From the NCBI GenBank assembly GCA_021779915.1, contig JAJXZR010000020.1:1-32849 (forward strand): DNA of 32,849 nt. The letters are read 5' to 3'. A program made the position numbers and the translations under genes. This document shows positions 1 through 31,985 of this stretch, piece by piece (the first letter of the stretch is position 1; each line of letters starts with the position of its first letter). The DNA comes from a bacterium (GTDB lineage Bacteria; Patescibacteriota; Minisyncoccia; CAIUEV01). The notes beneath the pieces were generated by a model, which was not told where the DNA came from, made no database searches, and saw only the letters and a program-made list of their open reading frames with translations.

Positions 1-3000
1 TGTTGTATTGCCAGTGCCACTGACCGTCAAAACCCCACTTGCGAGGAGATTACCGCTTGTGTTTATATTTCCACCCTGAACATCAAGTTTTTGCCCAGGT
101 GCTGTCGTCCCGATGCCGACGTTGCCGGCTATGGTTGTATTTCCTGTACCTTGAACTGTTAGGTTTCCGGTTTGTAGAACATTCCCCGATGCATCAACAC
201 TCATCTTCATATTCCCGCTTGCTCTAAAATTTAATGTTCCAGGATAATCTAAATAAGAACCAGTTGGAGTCATATATAATTGCCCTAGATAAGCTGAGGA
301 GTTTTCAAAATATAAAGTTGCTCCACTTGCGTCTCCAGATTTTATTTGTGCGATAGCTGTTCCACTAGCACTAACGACACTTAATTTATAACTAGGCACT
401 GTCGTCCCGATGCCGACGTTGCCGCCGTTGAGAAGGGTCATCGATACGGCATTGTTGACTCCGAATTGAAGCGGGTTCGTTCCTGCCGCGGCGACGATGC
501 CCGCATACGCGGTGTCTCCGCTCAACAAGCCGCCCCCGGCACTGTTCTCTCTTCCGAAATAAAACTCGCCGCCAGTGTTGATTATTGAACTATAAGCATA
601 GTTGGTTCCCGTTGTCGACGTGAGTTTCGTATGCGCCGTGGCCGCCTGAACATCCAACGCCGCGCCCGGACTCGCCGTCCCGATGCCGACGTTGCCTTGG
701 ACAATGAGACCATTGCTCGGTGCCGCGGTCGTAACATACCCCGAACCGATTGCCGCCCCGCCGTAGAGATTGAGTACGTTGGCGTTGATGGGCGATGAAC
801 CTCCTATGGTGACAGAAGTATCACCGCTTCCGCCACCGGGCAACATGACGATGCCTCCCAGGTAGTTCGACTGGATGCTTGCTTGGTGCGCGGTGCCGCC
901 GTTATAGCCCTTCAAATAAAGAAAGGCATTCCCGCTTCCGCTACCAGGTGTAATCATGACGCCCACGTCGCTGCCCCCGCCTTCAACATCCAATTTGCTC
1001 CCCGGACTCGCCGTCCCGATGCCGACGTTGCCGCTTATAATCATTCCTCCTGACGGTGCCGCCGTAGCATAATATGTGCCAGCAGAAATACCACCATTAA
1101 CACCGAGTACTGATCCTGGACGGGTATTTCCTATGCCTACGTTACCACCATCTCCTGGATTACTGGAAGGGTTTAATAGAAGAGGAGTAAATGCTACTCC
1201 TGACCTTGCCGAGGCAATTACTCCAGAACCGTTTGTCCCTAATGAGGAGTCATAACCAACATGGAGTTGTTCGGTCGGGATACTAGCGTTAGCTAAGACT
1301 AATTGAGCCTCGGTAACGACAAAACCATTAGTTGTCGCGGTAGTATCTCGCACCACATGCAAAGCTGTCCCAGGTGCCGTCGTCCCGATGCCGACGTTGC
1401 CCGCTATTGATGAATTGCCAGTACCACTGACCGTCAAAACTCCACTTGCGAGGAGATTACCGCTTGTGTTTATATTTCCTCCCTGAACATCAAGTTTTTG
1501 CCCAGGTGCCGTCGTCCCGATGCCGACGTTGCCTTCTATTGCTAAACCGTTTGCCGGTGCCCCAAGCAAGGCGTACGTGCTTCCAATATTCGCACTTCCC
1601 GCAACTGACAGTGTTGTGCCCGGTGCCGTCGTCCCAATCCCCACATTTCCGCTCGTGTCCATGTACATCCCGGTGTTTGAGCCGGTTTTGATTTGTAAAG
1701 CGCGGGTGGTGCCGGTGCCGAGGGCGGTTGAAGAGAGTGTCATTACGTTGGAGTTGAAAGACAGTTGTCCCAATTCATAGTTGCTGGCATCAGTATAGGA
1801 ATTGTACATTTTGAGACTGGCTGGTCCAAGGAACAGATCACTCCAGCGATGAGTGGCATCACCCAAAGCATAGGTATTATCGGCTGATGGCAGAATATTA
1901 CCCGTGGCTGTCAATGTTCCTCCGACTGTCAACGCTCCAGTGAATCGACCATCGCCGTTGACGTCAAGTTTGTAGGCCGGGTTCGTCGTCCCGATGCCGA
2001 CGTTGCCTGTGTCCAGAACTGTCAGGTTTTCCGTACCGGAGTGGTTCATTATAGAAAATCGGTCAACGGCATCAGCTGTAAAGTGGGTTGAAAAACCCAT
2101 TGCCTGACCCGAACCGCCTGCGGCTTTCATCAGCGCAATCAAATTGCCGGTATAGCCTGTGCTTGGCAACTGCATAACCAAACTTTGCCCGAACTGATCA
2201 TAGCCGGTAATATTCATCACTCCTGTGTTCCCTGTTCCTGATTGACCGACAACTTGTAATTTTACCCCCGGAACTGCTGTCCCAATTCCCACATTTCCTC
2301 CCGTGAATAAAGCTGAGTAAGTGGCGTTGGAAAAAGTTGAGGTGCCGGTGAAAGTGTTAGCGGAAGTTCCTGTTTGCGTGTAAGCTCCGTCATTACTGAT
2401 ACCCGATATTCCGGTCAGTGATCCGGTATTTGAGATATCCCAGTCAGATGAATCAATCGAGATTAAGTTTAGTCCTGAGCCGATCGTTATTGCACCGGTG
2501 GAAGTGCCGGTGTTGATGTTGGTAGCAAAATTGGACGAGGCGTTAAGATTGATGACCGCGCCACTGACATTAGCGCCCAAATTAGCCGTGATTAAGCCAT
2601 TGGAAGTGATTCCGCTGGTAGCGGTAATCAGGCCTGAAATTGTTGGAGTAGCGGTCCAATTGGTTCCGGAAACTGTTAGATTTCCTCCTAAATTGGTAAG
2701 ATAGTTGCCTGAGACGATAAAAGTGTTGTCCAAAGTGGTAGCACCGTGCATAGTCAGTGTTCCCGGGGTGGTGGTTGAACCGATAGTATTGATTGATGAA
2801 GATCCGGAACCGATTGTATTTACTGAGGAAGTACCGCTACCAATGCTGTTGGTTGTAGAATTTCCCGCTCCAAAGGTATTGGTAGTGGAATTGCCTGTAC
2901 CAACCGTAGTGTTGCCGGAAGAAGACAAATTGCCGATAATATCGGTCTGGCCTGTGATATAGGTGTTGTGGGCGATGATACCGTTTCCGACAAAGTTGTG

Positions 3001-6000
3001 GGTTCCCTCCACTTCAATATCCCAAACTTGTTCCGGTGGAAGCTCCGTAATCTTCTTAATTTTAGCAAATTCAGTCTCTCCATACTCGTTTTCTCCCTTT
3101 AATTTTTCCCCTTCCTCTACCACCGCTATCCTATCTCCTTCCTTTAAATAAACCACTTTTGTCCAATTTGCGTTTTTCATTTCTTCCTGATAGCTTCTTT
3201 CTAACGTGGGGGTGGCTTGGTGTGGATCCCGACTTGTCAATCGAGGATCTGGGGGTTCGATTCCCCCCACCTCCACGTTACGAATATTATAAGATTTGAC
3301 ATATTCATTAACTTCGCTACAATTATTGCAGATTGACAAGTCGGGAATCTGCACTAAGCTAGATCCTGCCAACGAATCCGCGTTCATCGCGGATTTTTGG
3401 TTTTCTGGGGCATTTTCTTGTTTAATAGCAAAATAAGGATGATTGCCGGTTGTTCTGATCTTTTTTCCATCTTCAGTTTCCAATTGATAAATCGGCTTTA
3501 CACCCATATCCAACAACCCTTTGATTTTTCTAGGCACCAATTGACCGGTTTTTTCGTCCAAAGACAAAATCTCTTCTCCACCCTTGACTTCATCTATCCT
3601 AATCTCCTTACTTTCCCGCTTTTTTTTCTTTCCCCTTTCCACTAATTTCGTGTCTCCTGTCACGCACTGCCCGTTGACTTCAAACTTATGAGTCGGATTT
3701 GTTGTTCCAATTCCGACATTGCCAGAATTAGTCGCCAAATAGGTTCCTCCGGTTGTTTGCATATCCCCATTGACATCCAATTTATAACTTGGGGCCACAT
3801 TGCCAATTCCCACTTTCCCGCTCGTATCCACTGACAGGTACTCATTCGTTCCTTCCATGATTCGCAAATTGCCTTCACTAGCTCCGTTCGTTTCTTGAAT
3901 GGACAATTTCCAGTCCCGAGCCGTCGTCGTTTCACTGGCGTTGGAATAAACATGAAGCGAAGTAGGACCGAGATAAAGATCGCGGTAACGAAGAGCCGAT
4001 GAGCCGATATCATAGGTGTCATCGAGTAATGGCAAGATGTTACCGGTGCTGACACTGCTCGCTACAAGGTTCGGAATTGTCACGTTACCCGTTCCAAAAG
4101 TTACCGGATTGTTATTAGTGGTGTTGATATAGAGCGTGCCGGAAGTGTTGTTCAAAACCGGTGAGGCGCCCGTGAGAGAAATAAGGGTGGACGCTAACGT
4201 GGTCGTGGCGCTATTTATCGTCGTAGTGGCCGTGCTGTTGATTGTCGTAGTAGTACCGTTTAGAGTAGTATTAGCATTAACAGTGGTATTGCCGTTAAGT
4301 GTCGTCGTGCCAGCTACCGTGGCCGTACCGTTGGTTTTGAGATTGCCACCCAGCGTCGTCAGTCCGGTACCGGTATTAATGGCACTATTAGATGTAGTGT
4401 TTAAATTGAGATTGCCCGCCGAATTGACGTTGATATTACCGGAAGTTGTAGTTGTTAAGCCTAGGTTACCCGCTGTGTTGGTCCAACCGGAAGCTCCGCC
4501 GGAAGTTAAGGTAAGAATACCGGTAGAGTTGCCAATATTACTGGCGTTAGTACCGGCCGTGTTAATGTTGGCGAGACCCGTGATATTCGTGGTTCCGTTA
4601 ATTATGAGTCCCGCATTACCGGTAATGAGTCCGTTGGCAGTGAGACCGCTGGTGGCAGTGATAAGCCCTGATATCGTCGGCGTAGCCGTCCAAGAAGTCG
4701 GATTAACGACAAGACTAAGACCGCAGATTGTAGTTACCGCTCCGTTTCTGCCTAGAGTCAGTCCAGTTTGAGTGGCTCCACCCAACACCAAAGTTCCCGC
4801 CGATCGAGTGTCAATGGTTCCCCCTCCGGCAATGAGGATGTTACCATTAACATCTAAAGCTTCCGTTGGGTGAGCCGTGTTTATTCCGACTCTATCTGAA
4901 ATATCGGCAGTTCCTAAAATGGAAAGCTGGTTGGTTGGACTGGCTGAACCAATCCCCATTTTTCCTTCCACAACTAGTCCATTGGCTGGGGCACTCACTC
5001 CGGCATAATTACTACCAATGGAGACATTCCCCTTGATAGAAAGTTTACTTCCGGGAGCACCGGTATTAACTCCAACGTTTCCCCCAGCAACGATTAGTTG
5101 GTTTCCTCCTACAAAAAGTCCATCTGTTGGAAGGAAAAGTGTTCCAGTCATCGTATCTCCATCTTGGTTGACATAGACAGGATCAAGAGTTGAAGAATAG
5201 TTAGCGGTGGTTAGGAGGGTCCCGGATGTTCCTGCAAAAGTGTAAGTGGAATTTTGATTGAGGTCTCCCATAGCTAATGTTCCATAGTAGGTATCTCCGT
5301 TGGATTCCAGCATTCTAAGGTGGGAGTTAGCGTTGTTTAAGGTGATGTCGTATTCTCCTGTCTGGTTCCAATCCTTGGTTAATGGTCCTAGTTCTAGGGT
5401 TGAGTCGGTTCCTTCTCCCTGGGTGGCTCCCTGGATGCCAGACCCACTCGTAATCGATTGGACATAGTTTCCAGTGGTGTCAGTTTTAAGGGCGATAGAG
5501 TCCGGTTGGATGGTAGTGATTCCGTCTTGGCTCATTAGAATGTCTCCGGTTACTTTGATTGACTTCCAATCATAGCCGGAGGCAATTAGGATGTTGCCTT
5601 GGGTTGGAGTAGTATCCGTGAAATCATTGTTACTTAGTTTCTCTGTGGTTTTGCACTGCCATTTGTTTTCTGTTTCATTCCAGATGTAGGATTCCCCATC
5701 CCTGCAGAGTTTTTCGTTGAGAGAGAGTTTGTAGTCGTTTCCTTGTTTAGTGGTTTGAATGGGAGAGAAGGAATCAATCGTACGGGCGTATTGCGATACG
5801 CCCGTACTCTCATCCATTGTGCCCTGTTCCGACTGGTTCAGGATGTCATCCCGGGCTCCGACCCGGGATCCAGTAACTTGTTCGCTTCCATTCGTATTTC
5901 CTTTTTGGGCGGACACAAGGCCAGCCCCTACATCGTTTTTATTTGGATTTTCGTCATTGGTCATTGATTCGTCATTCGTTATTCGTCCTTCGTCATTAAA

Positions 6001-7419
6001 AATATTACCATTCACCCCTTTTTCCTGACCAATCTCATTCTTTCCTATGCCAAGCATTCCCCTCTCAAGCATACTCTTCATTGCTAAGGCTCCCCAAGAA
6101 AAGAGGGAGATAATGAGAATCATTAGGACTCCGTTGAGGACTTTTCTGGTGGAAGTTGGAGCGTATTGCAATACGCCCGTACTGGATGGTTCAGTAGTTT
6201 GCCCCATGTTAAATGGTCCAGAACTGTGCCCTGTATCGAATAGTACAGGGTCTAATATCGATTGGCTCTTGGGAATAGGAAGAGACGCAAGAGTCGGTTT
6301 TGTATCTTCTTTTTTCTCCAGATCGGTAAAGGACAAGAACGTCCCTTCAGAAATCGGCATGATTGGTACGGGGACGTCTTCCATACCCTCTAGTTCGGGG
6401 GCTATACTCTGTACCGTCTGGTTTGGAGCTTGCCCCGTAACGTCTGGCTCGGGGCTGTGCCCTGTACCGTCTGGTACAGGGTCGTTCCTCGCAGAATCCA
6501 ACGACTTGTTCCAGATATCGGCATAATCGTCGGGGGTATCTTTATTGGGCGGGAGAATATTGGGCGGGAGAACCCCGCCCCTACGGATTTCCTCTGTTTC
6601 ATGTTTTATGTTCCATGTTTTATTCTCTTCTTCTTCCTCTTCCTCGACCGCCGTAGCTTTAGCGAAGGCTGGTTCCTCGGCTCGCCGTAGCCCTGCGAAG
6701 GAGGCCTCCTCATCAAACACAAAACCCGAGTCATGACGAAGGGACAAGGGAGTTGGAATATGCTCTCTTTCGTTTCCGATTTTTTCTTTTTCTATCTGTT
6801 TTATCGGTTTCTCTGCTGGTATCTCGCCTTCTCTAATTCTAACAGTAATATCGGCAATTTGGGAGATTCTGATGAGATTATCTTCCTTTAAAAGAGAACC
6901 CGACCCGAGTTGGTTTCCTCCCCTTTCGAAGGAGAGGTGGCCGGAGGCCTGAGAGGTTTGTTCCTCCGCATCCAAATTTTTTGACCTCTCCGTCTCGATG
7001 CGAGTCGCCTCCCCTTGAAAGGGGGAGGAAGAAATATCTTTGTTTATTCCTAAATTCTCATTCTTAAATTCCACATCTTCCTTAGGATTTTGAATTTTGT
7101 CATTGATTCGCCATTTGCTTGCCCCGTACTGAATAGTTCTGGGGTCATTCGTCATTTGTAATTTCAATCCATCTTTTATCCCCATCTGTCTTATCGTTTC
7201 ATGTGATTTATCAGAGAGCTTAGCGATTTCACTGAAATTAAAACCGTTTTGAAGCAGGTAAAGGATCATTTCCGTCTGGACTTCCGATTTTCCTTGGTAA
7301 TAAACTCTCTTTTTTCGAAGCAACGAATAAGAACCTGCCCCGAATTTCTCGAGAAGCATTTGTTTAGCCGACTCAATCCTCTTTTTTTTAAATTCTTTTG
7401 TTTGTTTTGGTCTTGCCAC
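1..7419 (-). CDS. Giant membrane-anchored fibre-like surface protein with intein (C-terminus beyond window)
   Basis: One reading frame stays open from a GTG at 7419 (an ATG at 7359 is the alternative) to the left edge, at least 2473 codons. Residues about 1-90 are basic, with a helix-turn-helix-like stretch (FSEIAKLSDKSHETIRQMG). Residues about 105-420 are a low-complexity linker assembled largely from dispersed palindromic repeats. One hydrophobic helix lies at about 425-447 (VLNGVLMILIISLFSWGALA). The rest is probably outside the cell: about 14 copies of a GNVGIGT...KLDV module, tail-fibre-like segments (DDTYDIGSSALRYRDLYLG), and Thr/Asn- and Gly/Ser/Asn-rich repeats near 4185-4330 and 2790-2920. 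VGIGT modules are known from bacterial fibre and adhesin-like proteins. An intein occupies residues 1252-1485. I infer a surface fibre or adhesin; the ligand is unknown and the end of the protein, perhaps a chaperone or anchor domain, is not visible. No clear Shine-Dalgarno site precedes either start. Confidence 0.85.
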   Translation of the reverse strand, partial: MARPKQTKEFKKKRIESAKQMLLEKFGAGSYSLLRKKRVYYQGKSEVQTEMILYLLQNGFNFSEIAKLSDKSHETIRQMGIKDGLKLQMTNDPRTIQYGASKWRINDKIQNPKEDVEFKNENLGINKDISSSPFQGEATRIETERSKNLDAEEQTSQASGHLSFERGGNQLGSGSLLKEDNLIRISQIADITVRIREGEIPAEKPIKQIEKEKIGNEREHIPTPLSLRHDSGFVFDEEASFAGLRRAEEPAFAKATAVEEEEEEENKTWNIKHETEEIRRGGVLPPNILPPNKDTPDDYADIWNKSLDSARNDPVPDGTGHSPEPDVTGQAPNQTVQSIAPELEGMEDVPVPIMPISEGTFLSFTDLEKKEDTKPTLASLPIPKSQSILDPVLFDTGHSSGPFNMGQTTEPSSTGVLQYAPTSTRKVLNGVLMILIISLFSWGALAMKSMLERGMLGIGKNEIGQEKGVNGNIFNDEGRITNDESMTNDENPNKNDVGAGLVSAQKGNTNGSEQVTGSRVGARDDILNQSEQGTMDESTGVSQYARTIDSFSPIQTTKQGNDYKLSLNEKLCRDGESYIWNETENKWQCKTTEKLSNNDFTDTTPTQGNILIASGYDWKSIKVTGDILMSQDGITTIQPDSIALKTDTTGNYVQSITSGSGIQGATQGEGTDSTLELGPLTKDWNQTGEYDITLNNANSHLRMLESNGDTYYGTLAMGDLNQNSTYTFAGTSGTLLTTANYSSTLDPVYVNQDGDTMTGTLFLPTDGLFVGGNQLIVAGGNVGVNTGAPGSKLSIKGNVSIGSNYAGVSAPANGLVVEGKMGIGSASPTNQLSILGTADISDRVGINTAHPTEALDVNGNILIAGGGTIDTRSAGTLVLGGATQTGLTLGRNGAVTTICGLSLVVNPTSWTATPTISGLITATSGLTANGLITGNAGLIINGTTNITGLANINTAGTNASNIGNSTGILTLTSGGASGWTNTAGNLGLTTTTSGNINVNSAGNLNLNTTSNSAINTGTGLTTLGGNLKTNGTATVAGTTTLNGNTTVNANTTLNGTTTTINSTATTTINSATTTLASTLISLTGASPVLNNTSGTLYINTTNNNPVTFGTGNVTIPNLVASSVSTGNILPLLDDTYDIGSSALRYRDLYLGPTSLHVYSNASETTTARDWKLSIQETNGASEGNLRIMEGTNEYLSVDTSGKVGIGNVAPSYKLDVNGDMQTTGGTYLATNSGNVGIGTTNPTHKFEVNGQCVTGDTKLVERGKKKKRESKEIRIDEVKGGEEILSLDEKTGQLVPRKIKGLLDMGVKPIYQLETEDGKKIRTTGNHPYFAIKQENAPENQKSAMNADSLAGSSLVQIPDLSICNNCSEVNEYVKSYNIRNVEVGGIEPPDPRLTSRDPHQATPTLERSYQEEMKNANWTKVVYLKEGDRIAVVEEGEKLKGENEYGETEFAKIKKITELPPEQVWDIEVEGTHNFVGNGIIAHNTYITGQTDIIGNLSSSGNTTVGTGNSTTNTFGAGNSTTNSIGSGTSSVNTIGSGSSSINTIGSTTTPGTLTMHGATTLDNTFIVSGNYLTNLGGNLTVSGTNWTATPTISGLITATSGITSNGLITANLGANVSGAVINLNASSNFATNINTGTSTGAITIGSGLNLISIDSSDWDISNTGSLTGISGISNDGAYTQTGTSANTFTGTSTFSNATYSALFTGGNVGIGTAVPGVKLQVVGQSGTGNTGVMNITGYDQFGQSLVMQLPSTGYTGNLIALMKAAGGSGQAMGFSTHFTADAVDRFSIMNHSGTENLTVLDTGNVGIGTTNPAYKLDVNGDGRFTGALTVGGTLTATGNILPSADNTYALGDATHRWSDLFLGPASLKMYNSYTDASNYELGQLSFNSNVMTLSSTALGTGTTRALQIKTGSNTGMYMDTSGNVGIGTTAPGTTLSVAGSANIGSTYALLGAPANGLAIEGNVGIGTTAPGQKLDVQGGNINTSGNLLASGVLTVSGTGNSSIAGNVGIGTTAPGTALHVVRDTTATTNGFVVTEAQLVLANASIPTEQLHVGYDSSLGTNGSGVIASARSGVAFTPLLLNPSSNPGDGGNVGIGNTRPGSVLGVNGGISAGTYYATAAPSGGMIISGNVGIGTASPGSKLDVEGGGSDVGVMITPGSGSGNAFLYLKGYNGGTAHQASIQSNYLGGIVMLPGGGSGDTSVTIGGSSPINANVLNLYGGAAIGSGYVTTAAPSNGLIVQGNVGIGTASPGAALDVQAATAHTKLTSTTGTNYAYSSIINTGGEFYFGRENSAGGGLLSGDTAYAGIVAAAGTNPLQFGVNNAVSMTLLNGGNVGIGTTVPSYKLSVVSASGTAIAQIKSGDASGATLYFENSSAYLGQLYMTPTGSYLDYPGTLNFRASGNMKMSVDASGNVLQTGNLTVQGTGNTTIAGNVGIGTTAPGQKLDVQGGNINTSGNLLASGVLTVSGTGNTT
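1414..1534 (-). repeat. Internal duplication in the fibre gene (second copy at 7-127)
   Basis: About 120 bp here are nearly identical to 7-127, offset by 1407 bp (exactly 469 codons). Both copies encode the same module containing KLDVQGGNINTSGNLLASG between two VGIGT motifs. The near identity contrasts with the strong divergence of the other modules and points to a recent duplication or gene conversion. Confidence 0.85.
2965..3666 (-). other. Intein (234 aa, no recognisable homing endonuclease) inside the giant fibre protein
   Basis: The fibre module is interrupted after VNGQ by a Hint-type segment. It begins with Cys1 (CVTGDTKLVERG, block A) and has a block B TTGNHPYF with the expected Thr and His. 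It ends with block F (VWDIEVEGTHNFVGNGIIA) and the terminal His-Asn, followed by Thr as the +1 residue. All catalytic residues expected for class 1 protein splicing are present and the frame is open on both sides. Splicing would remove 234 residues and join VNGQ to TYITGQTD. No LAGLIDADG or HNH motif is seen, so it is a mini-intein by content. The linker between the two halves (about residues 85-165) is longer than a minimal one and contains the tRNA-like palindrome described separately. It could instead act as a self-cleaving Hint domain. Confidence 0.85.
3203..3281 (+). repeat. tRNA/tmRNA-like foldback sequence inside the intein coding region
   Basis: Read on the plus strand, 3208-3275 resembles a tRNA. 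A 7-bp acceptor (GGGGGTG with CACCTCC) is followed by a perfect T arm (GGGGG, loop TTCGATT, CCCCC) and a discriminator A. In the middle is a GATCC-CGA/TCG-A-GGATC stem with loop CTTGTCAA. The acceptor helix extends outward to 14 bp through TAACGT/ACGTTA. There is no D stem and the length is only 68 nt, so it is not a normal tRNA. The 5' part also resembles the tRNA-like domain of tmRNA. On the minus strand it reads in frame as GGIEPPDPRL. A 15-bp inverted copy of the middle stem (3228-3242) occurs at 3331-3345, and a GC hairpin with T run follows at 3375-3398. Whether any RNA is made is unknown. Confidence 0.6.
5779..7152. repeat. Cluster of palindromic repeat units within the N-terminal part of the fibre gene
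   Basis: Several unrelated palindromes lie in the coding sequence of the linker. They include a perfect GTACGGGCGTAT/ATACGCCCGTAC hairpin at 5779-5806 (half copy near 6162-6183) and a GTCATCC...GGATCCAG unit at 5844-5873. CCCTGTACC/GGTACAGGG lies near 6459-6483, GGGCGGG units near 6547-6583 and a CGCCGTAGC unit near 6650-6710. TCCTCCCCTTTCGAAGG-type arms occur at about 6915-7030 and a TTGCCCCGTACTGAAT unit at about 7123-7152. Related units are seen outside the gene, for example near 9098-9265, 18466-18493 and 24664-24789. All keep the reading frame open. Confidence 0.75.
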
Positions 7420-27034: not shown

Positions 27035-28204
27035 TTAATAAAAATTATCCGCTGTTACCAACCTGATTTTGGCTTTTGGATATCTATTTTTAAAAGCCTT
27101 ATTAGCTGATTTTCGTTTATATTTTACTTCCACTCCAACGAGGCTATTTCCTTTTTCTAGAACTACATCTATTTCTGATCCTTGTTTTGTTCTCCAATAA
27201 TAAAATTTAAAATTTTTTTCTGAATAACTGTCTTGTTTTATCAGTTCGCTAATTATGAAATTTTCGAATAAAGCTCCCTTGTCCGTCCTTGAATCCAAAT
27301 CAGAAAAATCTCCAATCAGCGCATTCCTAATTCCAGTATCATAGAAAAATATTTTTGTCGCTTTCAAGATTTCATCTCTTTTGTTTTTTGAATAAGGGTA
27401 TAATCGAAACAGAATGAAACTCTGTTCAAAAATTTCAACATATCTCTTGATTGTTCTTTGATCCGCTTTCAAACTATTTGCTAATTCAGAATAGTTTATT
27501 ATATTTCCAATCTGAAAGGCCAGAAGTTTTAATAAATCCTTAGCCAGTTTTTTATCCTCAATCAAATTCAGCTCCAAAATATCCTTAAAAATCAAACTAT
27601 CCACAAAATTTAATAAATATTTTTCATCGTTTGGATTCTTGATCAAATAAGGATATTGCCCATAAACCAGTATGTTGTTTAAAATGCTTTTTATGTCAAA
27701 CCTATACAATTGATCTTTCGAATTATATTTTTTGTCATCAATTAATTTTTCAAGAACATTGAAATTTAAATCATTTTCAACGCCCTTTTGATTCAAATAT
27801 TCAGAAAAGGTAAGAGGAAAAATATTATAATCAATTTTTCTTCCAGCTAAGCTTTCTCCGGTTTTGTTTTTTATATGGAAAGAAGATGATCCCGTAATGA
27901 TTATTCTTATATTTTCCATTTGATCATAAATTATCTTCACGGCTCTGCCAGGATTATCCAAAAGATGAATTTCGTCGATAATAATCTCTTTAGAATCTTT
28001 ATTTATCAACGTTTTATACGTCTCAATATCATAAGTTCCTAAAATTTTCTTAATTGGCTCATTATCAACTAAAAAATAATCCGCCTTGGGAAATATTTTT
28101 TTAACTAGAGTCGTTTTCCCAACTTGCCTGGAACCAAGTAAAATAAGTACTTGCTTGTATTTTCTGAAGTGTTTGCCGATTTTAAAATCAAGATGCCTTT
28201 TCAT
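27035..28204 (-). CDS. AAA+ ATPase with DUF4143 domain
   Basis: A 389-residue protein of the AAA_14/DUF4143 family, common in bacteria and archaea and without a firmly known role. Walker A is GSRQVGKTT near residue 24-32, and Walker B/sensor regions follow (IIIDEIHLLDNPG, IRIIITGSSSFHI, with SLAGRK). Residues about 190-290 contain a winged-helix-like part (NYSELANSLKADQRTIKRYV). The DUF4143 end carries a nuclease-like motif (GSEIDVVLEKG...VGVEVKYK) resembling the E-D-ExK fold of PD-(D/E)xK enzymes. Length is typical. No Shine-Dalgarno site is visible. The neighbours are a toxin-antitoxin pair and other accessory genes, fitting a genomic island. Confidence 0.9.
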   Translation of the reverse strand: MKRHLDFKIGKHFRKYKQVLILLGSRQVGKTTLVKKIFPKADYFLVDNEPIKKILGTYDIETYKTLINKDSKEIIIDEIHLLDNPGRAVKIIYDQMENIRIIITGSSSFHIKNKTGESLAGRKIDYNIFPLTFSEYLNQKGVENDLNFNVLEKLIDDKKYNSKDQLYRFDIKSILNNILVYGQYPYLIKNPNDEKYLLNFVDSLIFKDILELNLIEDKKLAKDLLKLLAFQIGNIINYSELANSLKADQRTIKRYVEIFEQSFILFRLYPYSKNKRDEILKATKIFFYDTGIRNALIGDFSDLDSRTDKGALFENFIISELIKQDSYSEKNFKFYYWRTKQGSEIDVVLEKGNSLVGVEVKYKRKSANKAFKNRYPKAKIRLVTADNFY

Positions 28205-31484: not shown

Positions 31485-31985
31485 ATGCCCAAACGGAAGG
31501 AATCTATGGCTACTTATCAAATGAGGCTAACTGGTAGTCCTTTCAGAAAAATCGTTGATGGCGATAAGATTATCGAATCAAGACTATACGACAAAAAACG
31601 CCAACAAATTGCTGTTGGTGATAAGATTGAGTTTACTTGTATTAATGAACCAACAAAAAAAGTTTTGACAAAGGTAAGAGCTATGTACTTATATAAATCA
31701 TTTGAAGAACTATTCTCAGATTTTTCCCCAAAATATTTTGGCGATGAATCAAAAAATAATTTGCTAAAGGAAGTTAAGAAATTTTATTCAGAAGAGGAAG
31801 AAAAAAAATATGGGGTGATTGGAATAAGGATACATAAAATTAAAATAGCCCAGATAGCTTTTGCTTACTGGGCTTTTAAAGATTACTTCTCAACTTGTGT
31901 AAATTCAAGAATTAAAAATTTGTATTTAGGAGTAAGCTCAAACAAGTTTATTTTTCGAGAAGTTTTTCTCTGTATTTTTCAATGA
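31485..31985 (+). CDS. ASCH-domain protein
   Basis: A small ASCH (PUA-like, RNA-binding-type) protein. The family core is MRLTGSPFRKIVDGDKIIES followed by RLYDKKRQQIAVGDKIEF, then VRAMYLYKSFEELF and the closing strand YGVIGIRI. ASCH proteins are thought to bind RNA or nucleosides; some are amidohydrolases. The domain normally ends soon after GIRI, but the frame here continues about 45 residues through a hairpin with T run (31846-31876) and overlaps the convergent Nudix gene by 38 bp. The extension is probably a frameshift artefact or decay at the C-terminus. Either M at 31485 or M eight codons on could be the start. Confidence 0.82.
   Translation: MPKRKESMATYQMRLTGSPFRKIVDGDKIIESRLYDKKRQQIAVGDKIEFTCINEPTKKVLTKVRAMYLYKSFEELFSDFSPKYFGDESKNNLLKEVKKFYSEEEEKKYGVIGIRIHKIKIAQIAFAYWAFKDYFSTCVNSRIKNLYLGVSSNKFIFREVFLCIFQ
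31846..31876 (+). terminator. Terminator-like hairpin within the apparent 3' end of the ASCH gene
   Basis: AGCCCAG/CTGGGCT stem with an inner AGC/GCT pair, followed by TTTT. Its place just past the domain end suggests the original stop lay before it. Confidence 0.6.

Follow-up and report, generated by a model that had tools for sequence, protein, structure and literature searches.

The mini-intein and its fibre gene

The window analysed here is the whole of contig JAJXZR010000020.1 (32,849 nt; our contig C11), part of a 1.12 Mb Patescibacteriota genome that comes from metagenome-assembled genome (MAG) data. One end of the window is taken up by a gene for a giant, repetitive surface-fibre protein, which starts with GTG, runs off the contig end and encodes at least 2473 aa. 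The gene hosts a class-1 mini-intein, and on the opposite strand of the intein linker lies a cassette of two predicted small RNAs, here called RNA1 and RNA2. The fibre gene and the intein are laid out as follows:

1..7419, minus strand: open reading frame (ORF) of the fibre protein that hosts the intein
2965..3666, minus strand: class-1 mini-intein, 234 aa, Cys1...His-Asn followed by Thr (translation, Pfam, NCBIfam, AlphaFold, Foldseek)
3412..3666, minus strand: N-terminal splicing part (blocks A and B), intein residues 1-85 (TIGR01445; AlphaFold confidence, pLDDT, for the most part around 90)
2965..3168, minus strand: C-terminal splicing part (WTKVVYLKEGDRIAV...HNFVGNGIIAHN), intein residues 167-234 (TIGR01443; pLDDT for the most part around 90)

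A preliminary description of this DNA had placed an intact mini-intein at exactly 2965-3666, directly after a module of an exported repetitive fibre that we write as VGIGT/KLxV, and we agree on each of these points. The intein forms residues 1252-1485 of the fibre protein. It starts with C-V-T-G-D-T and ends with A-H-N, and its translation contains every splicing residue that had been named: C1, the TxxH motif of block B (R-T-T-G-N-H), the terminal H-N and the +1 T. Profile searches point the same way (PF14890 Intein_splicing, E 9e-20, 71.5 bits against a cut-off of 35.8; TIGR01443 and TIGR01445 both above their cut-offs), and intein/Hint families are all that the fibre ORF matched in Pfam and NCBIfam. 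DnaB mini-inteins are the nearest solved relatives by sequence; in the AlphaFold model, built from 13 family members, the two confident halves match the Npu and Ssp DnaB mini-inteins (Foldseek E 4.8e-10, target-normalised TM-score, TMt, 0.89). In the same model the middle of the intein (residues 97-150) falls below pLDDT 50 and is predicted to be unstructured. A Hint fold with blocks A, B, F and G, together with Cys1, the block-B His, the terminal Asn and the +1 Thr, places the element in class 1, and we hardly doubt that the segment is an intact intein. With the class-1 mini-inteins of Npu and Ssp DnaB and Mtu RecA it shares the Hint fold, Cys1, TxxH, His-Asn and a +1 nucleophile; unlike them it has a surface-fibre host, antisense cargo in the linker and no endonuclease. 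Taken alone it adds one more ordinary member to a known family, and the novelty lies in the cargo. Nor are inteins limited to nucleotide-binding enzymes; intein-like BIL domains are Hint domains found in variable, nonconserved proteins (PMC7765530). A-type BIL domains lack the +1 nucleophile and B-type domains the usual C-terminal motif, whereas the window intein has both.

Contrary to the initial impression of an isolated oddity, a profile of the N-terminal block found the same intein in 21/384 genomes of the class (about 5%) and in 9/380 genomes of the phylum. Nearly all family members share one site in the fibre repeat, which reads L-x-V-x-G-(Q/H), then the intein (C...H-N), then T-Y-(I/L); N is also listed before Cys1. 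Other fibres of the family contain uninterrupted repeats of the form LSVAG-N-TYLSGNL, compared with LSIAG-H, C...HN, TYLTGGLG where the intein is present. Since such intein-free repeats exist, splicing would restore an ordinary module. Several inteins may occupy a single fibre: L030 has three that were read completely, L031 and L034 have two apiece, and G713 gives four profile matches. Among about 35 complete fibre inteins read, the splicing residues are strictly kept rather than mutated; a single broken copy, L028 (identical in locus to L061), has lost its C-terminal block but retains an intact RNA cassette. In viral contigs the family gave one weak, distant match only. Two MAGs labelled Omnitrophota and Deltaproteobacteria (L027, L033) also carry the intein, through transfer or misbinning.

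One recurrent site in many fibres, multiple copies per protein and strictly kept splicing residues give the family the look of a selfish element that a repeat protein can tolerate. The preliminary description had instead suggested that the intein could control fibre length, anchoring or release, by conditional splicing or by an extracellular C-terminal cleavage. An exported fibre whose intein keeps all its splicing residues would suit such control; the same intein recurring at the same site of many fibres, its repetition within proteins and its selfish-element-like cargo (see below) speak against it, and both the +1 Thr and the module that is restored suggest ordinary splicing. We consider control of the fibre very improbable. 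A membrane segment, read by eye, appears only after ~430 N-terminal residues of the fibre protein; with the intein at residues 1252-1485, splicing before export is the simple expectation.

A tRNA-like RNA opposite the intein linker

The plus strand of the linker contains the following features:

3203..3404, plus strand: two-RNA cassette, antisense to the fibre gene, whose complement codes for intein residues ~89-155 (predicted disordered)
3191..3196, plus strand: weak -10-like box TAGCTT, 5' of RNA1
3203..3279, plus strand: RNA1, tRNA-like RNA (RF00023 match, covariation, two covariance models, R1 and R2)
3233..3240, plus strand: 8-nt anticodon-type loop CUUGUCAA of RNA1, target of RNA2
3296..3323, plus strand: RNA2 promoter TTGACA-N16-TACAAT (11/12 consensus)
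3330..3404, plus strand: RNA2, antisense RNA with a terminator at its 3' end
3374..3396, plus strand: intrinsic terminator that ends the cassette, with a 9-bp stem and a T-rich tail reaching ~3404

The 216-nt cassette region folds with a z-score of -7.0. RNA1 forms a 12-bp stem, made up of a 7-bp acceptor (3208-3214/3268-3274) and a 5-bp extension, followed by a 2-bp D arm, a long anticodon-type arm and a T arm. ARAGORN and Rfam at gathering thresholds called nothing at 3203-3279. The best Rfam match is the end of transfer-messenger RNA (tmRNA; RF00023, 37.9 bits, below the gathering cut-off of 47), and RNA1 is absent from Rfam. It differs from a tRNA, with its recognised cloverleaf and 7-nt anticodon loop, in a loop that is most often 8 nt long, and from a tmRNA in that about 300 internal model positions are replaced by 10 nt. 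Structure and covariation led us to reject a degenerate tmRNA gene. In a 28-sequence alignment compensatory changes occur in 26 of the 28 pairs, with 197 double-change cells versus 55 in shuffles (0/500 shuffles reach the observed value). Covariation extends to the loops: a D-loop GG goes with a T-loop UUC or UCC, and a D-loop AG with UGC. Such coupled changes indicate the tertiary contacts of a tRNA elbow. That RNA1 is a real, structured tRNA-like RNA is almost certain. Like the tRNA-like domain of tmRNA it has an acceptor and T arm with G3:U70 and A73; unlike tmRNA it lacks the mRNA-like domain and tag, and it possesses an anticodon-type arm as well as a partner RNA that is antisense to it. 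YrlA, a bacterial Y RNA with a tRNA-like module, has tRNA mimicry in common with RNA1 and serves as a lead only. We know of no antisense partner of YrlA, and no YrlA match was listed in an Rfam scan of 2900-3720 in which overlapping same-clan matches were hidden.

G3:U70 and A73 make up the classical alanine identity set. Both are present in the window copy, and among RNA1 relatives G3:U70 occurs in 56/62 and A73 in 57/62, while the remaining stem covaries freely. Two tRNA genes of the same genome, with anticodons read as alanine (L004, L005), share the set. CCA is encoded by 18/62 relatives. In a minority class the stems read GCC..GGC, mostly combined with U73, which recalls glycine tRNAs. 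On this identity set, alanylation of RNA1 seems on balance probable. The central loop triplets of RNA1 relatives (GUC, AUC, GCC, ACC, GAC and others) are non-alanine anticodons as read. At the place of the -10-like box most relatives have TATAAT-like boxes.

RNA2 is complementary to RNA1

The first ~28 nt of RNA2 pair with the loop, the 5' side of the anticodon arm and the D arm of RNA1; this pairing includes an exact 16-bp repeat, 3331-3346 against 3227-3242. A TTGAC-N15-19-TA box precedes RNA2 in all 34 cassettes compared. In the same set the mean predicted duplex energy is -40.7 kcal/mol for matched and -19.8 kcal/mol for mismatched RNA1-RNA2 pairs; its own RNA2 is the top-ranked partner for 30/34 RNA1 (0/10000 permutations reach the observed sum). 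We also considered a cis-acting attenuator, an idea weakened by convergent variants: in five cassettes (L122, L124, L126, L134 and L139, of which L122 and L124 are close relatives) RNA2 is encoded on the other strand, converges with RNA1 on a terminator that both share, and is still complementary. There RNA2 cannot be a cis attenuator of RNA1 and must act in trans. RNA2 is, we think, very probably an antisense RNA to RNA1.

The DNA that separates RNA1 from the RNA2 promoter contains the exact DnaA-box-like sequence TTATCCACA in 9/34 cassettes (for example L053, L054, L056, L066-L068 and L070) and variants of it in others; the window copy lacks it.

Distribution of the cassette

Searches for the RNA covered Patescibacteria, by covariance model, as well as viral contigs, phages and plasmids; cmsearch matches of 79-97 nt scoring below about 46 bits were excluded by length and score as ordinary tRNAs. 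RNA1 members number about 36 in the 384 class genomes and, with more elsewhere in the phylum, about 60 across Patescibacteria. Viral contigs, searched with one exact pattern, yielded no copy, phages only a 28-nt tmRNA end, and plasmids nothing.

Six inteins contain the cassette: that of the window and those of L024, L025, L052, L028/L061 and L107/L127. Their RNAs are 55-68% identical, except for L024/L061 at 89%, and each of them (that pair aside) either has its closest relative outside inteins or shows weak similarity to every other copy. This suggests about five separate acquisitions by inteins, an approximate count as the RNAs are short. Disordered linkers in genes other than inteins contain six more cassettes, again antisense and in frame (L060, L067, L113, L117, L118, L125). 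All 12 accepted coding insertions are antisense. In the class scan 0.003 RNAs were expected inside inteins and 3 observed, a crude estimate from approximate base sizes.

Antisense, in-frame insertion into disordered linkers, at unrelated genomic sites and with large inverted complementarity, is what a small mobile palindromic element similar to the Rickettsia palindromic elements would produce, residing in linkers with no cargo function. Base-pair and elbow covariation and the RNA1-RNA2 match reveal, on the other side, selection on the RNAs; copies within one genome are diverged, with no near-identical burst, and we noticed no target-site duplication. We regard such an element as quite improbable.

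Some arrangements of individual copies deserve mention. L050 (G067:C6) has two oppositely oriented cassettes flanking a 211-aa ORF of unknown function. Cassettes of L043 (G000:C21), L039 (G001:C16) and L046 (G230:C7) stand beside genes that by eye resemble those for reverse transcriptase and Avd-like four-helix proteins. We set aside the idea that the RNA is part of a diversity-generating retroelement: such genes adjoin these three copies, and none were seen beside most.

Cargo of related inteins

The preliminary description overlooked two things: the RNA pair opposite the linker, and the toxin-antitoxin genes that sister inteins carry in that place. Two of the sister inteins have an antisense ParE-type toxin gene in the same linker (L011, E 3e-6; L095, E 4e-9), three have antisense DUF433 and DUF5615 genes (L029, L099 and L106; E 4e-13 to 8e-24) and one an antisense DUF5615 gene (L016, E 3e-13). 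Seven tested inteins instead have an in-frame NYN nuclease domain (L030, L033, L034, L074, L082, L094, L098). RNA and protein cargo alike use two linker positions, before and after a W-x-K-V...EIAV segment. A second selfish gene nested in the linker is also found in homing-endonuclease inteins, whose nested gene is in frame and mediates homing; here the linker holds antisense toxin-antitoxin or RNA genes, or the in-frame NYN nuclease domain.

Other cargo was seen as well. An in-frame domain (FRFEIDQSGRxEELN...) with no Pfam name occurs in the inteins at L031:5185-6261 and L034:6001-7023 and in those of L076 and L105. A gene for a small two-helix membrane protein, a possible toxin, lies antisense in the inteins of L032, L085 and L100; the L032 protein resembles DUF6722 below the cut-off. 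Neither PADLOC nor NCBIfam could put a name to the unknown cargo proteins.

Two further explanations were weighed. RNA1 and RNA2 could be a regulatory or housekeeping pair, such as a tRNA-like decoy or an RNA that rescues ribosomes or resembles tmRNA, switched off by its antisense partner, for which the intein linker is a permissive landing place. RNA1 does resemble the part of tmRNA that is tRNA-like and retains the alanine identity pair, the majority of copies are intergenic, beside ordinary genes, and one locus is syntenic in three genomes that belong to a single family (L047, L048, L058). At this orthologous locus the cassette sequence, acceptor stem included, has greatly changed. A housekeeping role fits poorly with sporadic distribution and multiple copies in some genomes, with a separate tmRNA in the window's own genome, with cassettes in six inteins and six other coding linkers, and with an intein spot shared with protein toxin-antitoxin genes; we think it unlikely. 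Alternatively, toxin genes and cassette might sit in intein linkers only through tolerance of insertion, the cargo being addictive for itself and the intein gaining nothing. Cassettes in the other disordered linkers agree with this, and it is at odds with the strong (crudely estimated) excess in inteins and the repeated choice of toxin-antitoxin-type cargo. Such self-serving cargo strikes us as rather doubtful.

Elsewhere in the window are an AAA_14/DUF4143 ATPase gene (27035-28204) and an ASCH-domain gene (31485-31985).

A proposed addiction model for the intein

Computation shows the intein, its site, the RNA fold, the RNA1-RNA2 pairing, the recurrence in inteins and the protein toxin-antitoxin genes at the same spot of sister inteins; splicing, transcription, alanylation, toxicity and addiction are steps that we infer. 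We propose that a class-1 mini-intein would excise itself from a Patescibacteria surface-fibre protein before export, and that its linker, the usual place of a homing endonuclease, may have been colonised by addiction-type cargo. In the window this cargo would be a two-RNA module on the strand opposite the fibre gene. RNA1 would act as a tRNA mimic that shows the alanine identity elements and has an enlarged loop of the anticodon type. RNA2, presumably made from its own promoter, has a 5' end complementary to that loop and may be able to unfold the anticodon and D arms. RNA1, perhaps alanylated, might bring a wrong or frameshifting anticodon into the ribosome and harm the cell unless RNA2 is made; alanylation combined with an enlarged loop bearing non-alanine triplets could lead to misinserted alanine or a shifted frame. 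Loss of the intein would in this way be punished, and the antisense position of the cargo inside coding sequence couples its loss to that of the intein.

The structure of the RNA pair and its position in inteins make us favour an intein with addiction-type cargo, in which the pair would act as an RNA-only toxin-antitoxin system; judged from sequence, this has an even chance of being right. Several facts weigh against it. The inteins of L026, L027 and L087 have no visible cargo and others have cargo of unknown role. The cassette is also intergenic and present in other coding linkers, and hence not intein-specific. The RNA1 promoter of the window copy is weak, DUF433 and DUF5615 are a putative toxin-antitoxin pair, and antisense pairs regulate harmless RNAs too. 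That addiction benefits the intein itself is a more tentative suggestion.

The nearest RNA-toxin system is CreTA, a type VIII (RNA-RNA) toxin-antitoxin in which CreT sequesters a tRNA (PMC8501985). RNA toxin and RNA antitoxin are common to both on paper, with RNA1 toxicity here presumed. CreA, an antitoxin that resembles a CRISPR repeat, acts through a CRISPR effector (type I Cas); our pair would rely on direct antisense pairing and a tRNA-like RNA1. We do not file the pair under type VIII, as its defining toxicity is only predicted.

In the open-access literature we found no report of toxin-antitoxin genes or an RNA pair antisense within inteins, or of such an RNA. What is new is the RNA pair and its nesting in an intein, not the intein itself. 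We put forward, with some hesitation, that Patescibacteria inteins swapped homing for addiction through antisense toxin-antitoxin modules, including one of a new kind, a rogue alanyl-tRNA-like RNA checked by an antisense RNA. If this is true, endonuclease-free inteins need not be dying relics and may persist by addiction. The RNA pair, which is spread widely through a bacterial group that ranks among the largest, would then be a toxin-antitoxin system of about 200 bp that needs no protein and attacks with a tRNA mimic.

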